From the IMG/VR virus record IMGVR_UViG_3300021440_000128, positions 1-22,524 of that record: 22,524 bases of DNA. One strand, written 5' to 3'. Below the pieces are notes generated by a model, which was given only the letters and a program-made list of their open reading frames with translations, had not been told where the DNA came from and searched no databases. The position numbers and the translations under genes were made by a program. Below, one piece after another: positions 4,761 to 6,098 of the stretch. This DNA comes from a virus. Numbering within the stretch: position 1 is the first letter of the stretch; each line of letters starts with the position of its first letter.

Positions 4761-4783
4761 TTATGGATCAATTTATGGAACAA
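4761..4783 (+). repeat. Direct repeat TTATGGAWCAA x2 (candidate left arm-type sites)
   Basis: TTATGGATCAA (4761-4771) and TTATGGAACAA (4773-4783) repeat with a 12-bp period about 110 bp left of the att core. Related TTTTGGAACAG (4962-4972) and TTTCGGAACAT (4973-4983) lie to the right in the same orientation. Paired short repeats flanking a core are typical of the arm sites bound by the integrase N-terminal domain; that role is inferred. Confidence 0.45.
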
Positions 4784-4822: not shown

Positions 4823-4858
4823 CGGCGAAAGCGCCTGCAGCGCTTGTCTTTTTCGCCG
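4823..4858 (+). terminator. Nested hairpin with T-rich tract, terminator-like
   Basis: The inner stem AAGCGC (4829-4834)/GCGCTT (4840-4845) is followed by GTCTTTTT; an outer stem CGGCGAAA (4823-4830) with TTTCGCCG (4851-4858) is mutually exclusive at its edge. Either form could back up termination of transcripts from int before the att core. Confidence 0.4.
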
Positions 4859-4891: not shown

Positions 4892-4914
4892 TTCGATTCT
4901 CCTCGCCTCCACCA
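4892..4914 (+). other. attP: Candidate attP core: 3' end of tmRNA (ssrA)
   Basis: The sequence reads as the end of a tmRNA: T-loop TTCGATT (4892-4898), 3' T-stem strand CTCCT (4899-4903), 3' acceptor strand CGCCTCC (4904-4910) and ACCA (4911-4914). An acceptor ending CTCC followed by ACCA is characteristic of tmRNA. The bases just 5' (TGGTT) do not pair with CTCCT, so the tmRNA identity stops at the T-loop: this is a core fragment, not a gene. It lies between integrase and the lysis end of the late operon, where attP is expected. Integration would restore the host tmRNA 3' end. The host sequence is not in the window, so core limits are inferred. Confidence 0.78.
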
Positions 4915-4918
4915 ATGT

Positions 4919-4943
4919 AAAGCGCCTGTTACTAGGCGCTTTT
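4919..4943 (+). terminator. Rho-independent terminator directly after tmRNA-like core
   Basis: AAAGCGCC (4919-4926) pairs perfectly with GGCGCTTT (4935-4942) over an 8-nt loop (TGTTACTA), ending in TTTT. It starts 5 nt after the ACCA end. After integration it would serve as the terminator of the reconstituted host tmRNA, so the phage appears to supply both the 3' end and the terminator. Confidence 0.7.
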
Positions 4944-4945
4944 AA

Positions 4946-4961
4946 TGTTTCACGTGAAACA
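4946..4961. promoter_or_regulatory. parS: parS site (canonical ParB/Spo0J binding palindrome)
   Basis: TGTTTCACGTGAAACA is an exact match to the bacterial chromosomal parS consensus TGTTNCACGTGAAACA. The palindrome extends to 20 bp (4944-4963, AA and TT flanks). ParB loads on this sequence, spreads as a CTP clamp and organises segregation and SMC loading. It sits 31 nt past the tmRNA-like core, between a terminator and phage repeats. No parA or parB gene is visible in the window, so it would depend on host ParB or on a gene outside the window. An exact 16-base match is very unlikely by chance in 22.5 kb (about 5 in a million at equal base use). Confidence 0.8.
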
Positions 4962-4983
4962 TTTTGGAACAGTTTCGGAACAT
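4962..4983 (+). repeat. Direct repeat TTTYGGAACA x2 (candidate right arm-type sites)
   Basis: TTTTGGAACAG (4962-4972) and TTTCGGAACAT (4973-4983) repeat with an 11-bp period immediately after parS. They share TTWTGGAACA with the pair at 4761-4783 on the other side of the core, in the same orientation. Candidate integrase arm sites by analogy with other tyrosine-integrase phages. Confidence 0.45.
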
Positions 4984-4999: not shown

Positions 5000-5030
5000 A
5001 TTCGTGATTTTGTCTTTTTGGCGATTCTTT

Positions 5031-5074
5031 GGCAAGTTATAGGCAAGTTATAGGCAAGTTAAAACCGAGTTAAA
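5031..5074 (+). repeat. Four tandem 11-bp repeats (GGCAAGTTATA family)
   Basis: GGCAAGTTATA (5031-5041), the same again (5042-5052), GGCAAGTTAAA (5053-5063) and ACCGAGTTAAA (5064-5074). Exact helical-turn phasing suggests cooperative binding by a protein on one DNA face, such as excisionase, an integrase arm domain or a phage initiator. The repeat motif does not occur on the int side of the core. Confidence 0.7.
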
Positions 5075-5082
5075 ACCAAAAG

Positions 5083-5128
5083 AGCGCCCAAATGTATGTA
5101 AATATATATACATACAAGCGCGGGCGCT
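5083..5128. repeat. Large two-part inverted repeat (cruciform or hairpin)
   Basis: Outer arms AGCGCCC (5083-5089) and GGGCGCT (5122-5128); inner arms TGTATGTA (5093-5100) and TACATACA (5109-5116) around an AT loop. The two perfect stems are joined by short unpaired stretches (AAA on one side, AGCGC on the other). Read on the minus strand it is followed by CTTTTGGTTTT, which could make it a terminator for leftward transcripts; it could equally be a protein binding structure. Confidence 0.5.
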
Positions 5129-5309: not shown

Positions 5310-6098
5310 TCACTTGTTAATAAGGCTGTTCCATGTCTTTGCGCCTGCGATGCCGTCCACGGTCAAGCCATTGGCCGCCTGGTATTTTTTTAAAGCGGCT
5401 TCGGTTTTGGCTCCAAAGCTGGAATCAGTGGCCAATACATGGCCGTCGTTGTCTTTGTAGCCCTTCGCCTTCAAAATGCTTTGCACGGCGAAAACCTCCG
5501 GGCCTTTACTTCCCTTTTTTAATGTATCTACTGTAAGCATAATTTTATCCTCCCCAGGATCCGGCTCCGGTGTCGGTGCCGGTGTTGGTGTTTCGTCATA
5601 TATTACCCAGCTGGCCGGAAGCTTGCCGGCTTTTTGCCAGGGCGTCGAAGTCGTTTCACAAACGCCACGGGCGTGCCCGGCAGCTTCAATGACCGTTTGC
5701 GTGTCCGCATCCCAAATACCTAAATGCCCGGGCTTCCATACCACTAAGCCGGTGATATTCTTCGGCATTTTTTCAATGGGCCAGACTTCGCCCTTTTCTT
5801 CACAAATCTTTATGATCCCGTCCGCGCTGTAATCATAATTACAATTATATACGGGCTTTCCCTCCGGATTTCCCTGGCAAAATATCGCGCCTTTTAGAAG
5901 GCCCGCGCAATCGTGCCATTTTTCGCCATAGCCTGCAGTGTAAGAAGATTTTGGCCACTTGCCTATTTTGGCCGGGTACTGCTTCAATTTTGAAATATAA
6001 ACGGCTTCGCTGCCGATCTGCCCAAAGCATCCATATGTATACATACGGCCCAGCTGGCCGCGTGCGTACCGTATAAGCTGCTTACTTGTTATTGCCAT
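5310..6098 (-). CDS. Endolysin: NlpC/P60-type peptidase with peptidoglycan-binding domain
   Basis: 262-aa lysin. Residues ~5-170 form a Cys peptidase domain of NlpC/P60 type: C64 in WHDCAGLLKG is the predicted nucleophile, H125 in KPGHLGIWD the His, with E138 a candidate third residue. A Pro/Thr/Glu linker (~171-184, TPTPAPTPEPDPGE) leads to a PG_binding_1 domain (~188-262; KKGSKGPEVFAVQSILKAKG, then FGAKTEAALKKYQAANGL). No signal peptide, so release depends on the holin. Expected role: cleaves stem-peptide bonds in the host wall at lysis. Its start overlaps the holin end by 17 nt and it is the last gene before the late terminator. A cell-wall amidase with the same fold is the alternative. 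Confidence 0.9.
   Translation of the reverse strand: MAITSKQLIRYARGQLGRMYTYGCFGQIGSEAVYISKLKQYPAKIGKWPKSSYTAGYGEKWHDCAGLLKGAIFCQGNPEGKPVYNCNYDYSADGIIKICEEKGEVWPIEKMPKNITGLVVWKPGHLGIWDADTQTVIEAAGHARGVCETTSTPWQKAGKLPASWVIYDETPTPAPTPEPDPGEDKIMLTVDTLKKGSKGPEVFAVQSILKAKGYKDNDGHVLATDSSFGAKTEAALKKYQAANGLTVDGIAGAKTWNSLINK

Follow-up and report, generated by a model that had tools for sequence, protein, structure and literature searches.

Once bound to parS, ParB closes into a CTP clamp and spreads; its partners are ParA and SMC (PMC9178275; PMC10197239). In Bacillota chromosomes, the parS consensus is TGTTTCACGTGAAACA (PMC10197239). A chromosomal parS, together with parAB, stabilizes an unstable plasmid (PMC4368675), and the stability of the integrative element SGI1 is raised by parS sites stolen from a plasmid (PMC10954446). 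SGI1 has no complete Par system; it carries two copies of the IncC plasmid parS and works with a helper protein, Sci, as has been experimentally proven (PMC10954446). Partition functions are also found in temperate phages: the RedRock-type parABS phages encode their own ParA and ParB and carry a repeat-type parS, and RedRock has no integrase (PMC7157519). Integrative elements that target ssrA (the tmRNA gene) or tRNA genes include the ssrA genomic islands of Dehalococcoides, which use a serine recombinase and show a 20-nt repeat (PMC3146451).

The locus described here shares traits with each of these systems. It lies in a 22,524 nt stretch of DNA (hereafter, the window), which is IMG/VR virus record IMGVR_UViG_3300021440_000128 and most likely stems from a temperate tailed phage of Clostridia-type bacteria; a megablast search of the window against phage records returned no match. 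Like the Dehalococcoides islands, the phage appears to target ssrA, but with a tyrosine integrase, a 23-nt core, a phage terminator and a parS. Like SGI1, it appears to lack a complete Par system and carries a copy of another replicon's parS; unlike in SGI1, that replicon is the host chromosome, and there is a single putative site, placed inside attP. With the RedRock-type phages it would share a partition function in a temperate phage, but it has an integrase, no recognizable ParA or ParB, and a host-type parS. The 16-nt palindrome itself is identical to the parS of Bacillota chromosomes (PMC10197239), down to a natural variant, except that in candidate hosts the chromosomal sites are grouped on a single contig, whereas this one sits on a phage. 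In the literature searched, there was no description of a single conserved host-type parS in phages without recognizable Par genes.

We consider it likely that the phage integrates into the T-loop of ssrA and carries a host centromere site, parS, onto which host ParB is loaded. This reading is built on the identity of the core, the terminators, the identity and conservation of parS, the lack of a recognizable ParB, and the parS type observed in hosts; from these we infer the crossover point, the binding of ParB and the benefit to the phage. The features are listed in Table 1.

Table 1. Features of the attP region and its flanking genes; positions are those of the window.
Feature	Positions	Strand	Details
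Tyrosine integrase, 356 aa	3484..4554	+	PF00589, E 8.1e-16; phrog_1 integrase, 4.8e-47
Putative P-arm integrase sites TTATGGATCAA / TTATGGAACAA, 12 nt apart	4761..4783	+	Direct repeat; predicted role
attP core TTCGATTCTCCTCGCCTCCACCA: last 23 nt of ssrA (T-loop, 3' T-stem, acceptor strand, CCA)	4892..4914	+	Exact in ssrA of many Bacillota genomes
T-loop TTCGATT, predicted 7-nt crossover region between two integrase core sites	4892..4898	+	Host identity starts here
Phage-supplied intrinsic terminator for rebuilt ssrA	4919..4942	+	Hairpin, z -4.4
Orphan parS TGTTTCACGTGAAACA (candidate host ParB site)	4946..4961	.	Exact palindrome, single in window
Putative P'-arm integrase sites TTTTGGAACAG, TTTCGGAACAT, 11 nt apart	4962..4983	+	Direct repeats after parS; predicted role
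Endolysin gene, converging on attP	5310..6098	-	PF01471; phrog_2649 endolysin

The integrase gene ends 337 nt upstream of the attP core. An earlier note on this DNA claimed that this core is the last 23 nt of tmRNA. The claim holds: at least 120 stretches of a bacterial genome collection contain the 23-mer without a mismatch, and 117 of the 120 matches listed carry a tmRNA T-arm (GGAC[A/G]GGAG upstream), the other three falling into neither the tmRNA nor the tRNA-Ala class. Four representative bacterial loci with the 23-mer were identified as tmRNA by Rfam (RF00023), and the calculated chance of the 23-mer occurring in the window is ~6e-10. ARAGORN and Rfam, run over the whole window, called no tmRNA and no tRNA; positions 4892–4914 are therefore a 3' fragment only. 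Directly before the T-loop, host ssrA reads AGGAG and the window TGGTT, so that the match to ssrA extends from the T-loop through CCA. The note had likewise started the identity at the T-loop, with the partner T-stem strand not intact, and the alignment with host ssrA that it proposed bears out a shared 3' end, the common core stopping at CCA. The window core is thus well supported as a tmRNA-derived attP of an ordinary kind, a new member among the known ssrA-targeting elements.

The same 3' end is also found in another gene. Four contigs in IMG/VR (L127, L129, L132, L137) contain a tRNA-Ala(UGC) whose last 23 nt are identical to the core, and one related integrase (L293) adjoins a tRNA-Ala(GGC)-type end; conceivably, then, the phage rebuilds tRNA-Ala(UGC) instead of tmRNA. 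We regard this as very improbable, since a tRNA-Ala T-arm was seen in none of the 120 genome matches listed, the inspected loci of the host order are all tmRNA, and the related integrases L290, L307 and L306 have their att sites at tmRNA. As the target, tmRNA is strongly favoured over tRNA-Ala.

A terminator does begin shortly after the core, as the note had stated: the first base of its stem is the fifth base past CCA. The stem comprises 10 pairs followed by a T tail (-14.6 kcal/mol; z -4.4; 0 of 200 shuffles equal). A hairpin lies directly after CCA in all seven distinct attPs of the clade defined below, with energies of -14.5 to -17.4 kcal/mol and differing sequences. Upstream of the core, the window contains a further terminator-like hairpin (4828–4845), the 5' arm of which, AAAGCGCCTG, is also the 5' arm of the terminator at 4919.

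In host ssrA, the T-loop TTCGATT is bordered by the inverted arms AGGAG and CTCCT. The simplest explanation is therefore that crossover takes place in the T-loop, with the T-stem strands acting as core-type sites. Integrase would insert the phage into the T-loop of host ssrA, and crossover in TTCGATT would join the 5' part of host ssrA to the 3' 16 nt carried by the phage. Only the right-hand part of the core must match ssrA, because this part becomes the new 3' end. The tmRNA would stay intact, ended by the phage terminator, and the rebuilt ssrA would adjoin the endolysin gene. A model attL was built by joining the 5' portion of ssrA from a Clostridia genome (L312) to the window from the T-loop onward: ARAGORN calls an intact tmRNA in this attL, and none in attP or in the predicted attR. 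The proposal that integration rebuilds ssrA with a phage terminator is therefore supported in silico.

The note had also proposed to look for lysogens at ssrA. In genome G349, a distant relative (L307, L314; integrase 34% identical) shows the predicted geometry: an intact tmRNA at C15:1577, the 23 nt repeated at C15:41174 just after int, and 39.6 kb between the two ends. A second relative (L290; integrase 46% identical) adjoins an intact tmRNA. A protein-profile search of ~1,300 whole genomes—covering core-bearing genomes, two orders and two classes—recovered no lysogen of the window's own clade. Related integrases were most frequent in the likely host order, where 16 of 188 genomes carry them. 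In 27 genomes of this order, the exact core occurs once per genome, and the site is therefore apparently unoccupied. Four further related integrases (L295, L296, L298, L304) adjoin intact tRNA genes (Leu, Pro, Lys); right after each tRNA is a hairpin that resembles an element-supplied terminator, with GAAACA..TGTTTC stems.

Scanning for integrase and core sequences gave nine records: the window, L002/L125, L003/L134, L124, L126, L130, L131, L133 and L136. These contain seven distinct attPs; since the nine records form one clade, the seven attPs share ancestry. The integrases of the other attP-bearing records are 54–80% identical to that of the window, the order int, core, terminator is constant throughout, and the core is 100% identical in the seven attPs. 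Short direct repeats of the TGGAACAA type, spaced ~11–12 nt apart, flank the core and parS on both sides. Upstream of the core, all seven attPs have repeats of the P-arm type, with drifting sequence, and more distant integrases have different repeats at corresponding positions. The flanking repeats match what would be expected of arm-type integrase sites, and we treat them as putative arm sites.

Several other repeats were seen downstream of attP. The window contains three tandem direct repeats of GGCAAGTTATA followed by AAAACCGAGTTAAAACC (5030–5077), which may be an additional group of binding sites; L130, L131 and L126 have comparable CAAGTTA/CAAATTA repeats downstream of attP. An AT-rich palindrome, TGTATGTAAATATATATACATACA, is present at 5093–5116 of the window, with comparable ACTTACGTATATA repeats at about the same place in L136 and L002. 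L034 and L075, in which the core lacks the T-stem (attR-like), were set aside on account of integrases that fall outside the clade.

Between the terminator and the P'-arm repeats lies an exact match to the chromosomal-type parS palindrome, TGTTNCACGTGNAACA. It is the only match in the window at up to three mismatches, where 0.08 would be expected; the note, whose coordinates end at 4943, does not mention it. Exactly one parS is found in each of the nine clade records, always 26–41 nt past the core end, with the terminator preceding it and the P'-arm repeats following. Six viral contigs that match CTCCACCA plus parS (L269–L274) have neither integrase nor T-arm, and were rejected as chance matches. 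When the seven attPs are compared in 4-nt bins, pairwise identity is 1.0 in the core and 0.93–1.0 in parS, against ~0.2–0.5 in most of the surrounding bins; the DNA around these two near-identical islands is ~30% alike overall. The 16-nt consensus is matched exactly in six of the seven attPs; the sole variant, TGTTTCACGTGGAACA (L002/L003), is one base off, and is also a chromosomal form in Pelosinus.

A palindrome in this position could instead belong to the recombination machinery of an otherwise ordinary tmRNA attP, for instance as a pair of inverted arm-type sites or as an Xis or operator site. The half-site, GTGAAACA, is similar to the arm repeat TGGAACA, and the palindrome lies between the core and the P' arm. 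We think this unlikely. Firstly, the arm repeats drift between phages, from GGAACAA to GGGACAA (the latter in L131 and L136), while parS is constant and the palindrome retains GAAACA and the centre CACGTG; the arm domain of the integrase is therefore not what keeps parS fixed. Secondly, the palindrome equals the parS consensus in all but one of the attPs, and a natural parS variant in the seventh. Thirdly, it is missing from relatives whose arm repeats differ.

The site is both a real feature of the sequence and specific to this clade. Integrase relatives outside the clade (30–48% identical) have no parS, and neither do the TerL relatives Butyrivibrio phages Arawn and Idris, phage nd12 and MT835660. 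Capture of parS along with DNA downstream of host ssrA was considered and rejected for the genomes inspected: none of their core-bearing loci has a parS within 400 nt of the core. Viral parS matches in general are a mixed set, partly due to chance. Among 119 sampled viral contigs with an exact parS, a narrow home-made HMM detected no adjoining integrase; in 34 of the 65 viral parS loci that could be analysed, parS lies inside an ORF; and the genes flanking 29 intergenic viral parS included no ParB and no integrase among the 25 Pfam families listed. Four viral contigs (L154, L181, L190, L200) each contain three to five exact chromosomal-type parS, and are possibly partition loci or proviral pieces.

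Candidate hosts carry two or three parS each, as a rule close together on one contig. In the likely host order, that of genome G034, 83 of 188 genomes have a parS that is exactly TGTTTCACGTGAAACA; four checked genomes of the order without it use TGTTCCACGTGGAACA, and all four lack the ssrA end carried by the phage. Of the 27 genomes of this order that contain the exact core, 25 have the exact phage-type parS, as against 58 of the 161 others (Fisher p 2e-8, a value that overstates the evidence because the genomes are related and the association of parS with the core is confounded by phylogeny).

No gene for a partner protein was recognized in the phages. ParB_N (PF02195) is absent from all nine clade records, while positive controls were detected. 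Three of the assemblies look complete and circular: G003 (27,007 nt) is bounded by a perfect terminal repeat of 127 nt and G007 by one of 49 nt, and a run of 126 nt occurs close to the ends of G004. Among the 36 larger ORFs of G003, Pfam returned no ParA or ParB family; the families recovered were those of an integrase, replisome organiser, SSB, repressors, packaging, capsid, holin and lysis proteins. A ParB-like protein too divergent for the Pfam families may have escaped detection. Judged by their gene content, these appear to be phages without recognizable partition genes, as opposed to phages with a parABS cassette.

If the favoured reading is right, host ParB would load at parS, between the terminator and the P'-arm sites. 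The host ParABS/SMC machinery would then handle the circular phage genome, before integration or after excision, as well as the prophage end. The benefit to the phage would lie in tethering, segregation, and less frequent loss of the circle. By analogy with SGI1 and with the stabilization of plasmids by parS and parAB, the likeliest use of the site here, too, is that the circular form is kept from being lost. An ectopic parS could, conversely, harm the lysogen.

Other uses of the site have to be weighed against retention of the circle. One is that parS mainly loads ParB and SMC at the prophage end, organizing or silencing the prophage rather than partitioning the circle. After integration, parS would indeed sit at the ssrA end beside the lysis genes, and chromosomal parS are known to recruit SMC (PMC10197239), but the benefit of such organization or silencing is speculative and we give the idea a low probability. 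Slightly less probable still is a role for parS in the assembly or control of the intasome, in which host ParB would influence the architecture or the timing of integration and excision. The fixed place of parS in the seven attPs, past the core and abutting the P'-arm repeats, fits such a role. However, the distance from core to parS differs by up to 15 nt among the attPs, a spread incompatible with strict helical phasing, and attP is a long intergenic region in which a parS could be merely tolerated, making position a weak guide. We hold in similar doubt the idea that host ParB, once loaded in the stretch from the core to the P' arm, ties both the decision to integrate or stay episomal and the later excision to the chromosome segregation machinery of the host. 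A part for ParB in recombination is possible, and less likely than retention of the circle.

Integration at ssrA with a phage-supplied terminator is, in itself, ordinary; a lone, strictly conserved parS of the host type is out of the ordinary in phages lacking recognizable Par genes. If host ParB does load at the site in attP, the phage would be an integrating phage that borrows the centromere system of the host chromosome instead of encoding its own, and the trick of SGI1 would extend from plasmid to chromosome. The loading of ParB and SMC could then also be studied at an ectopic parS that occurs naturally and in a defined place.
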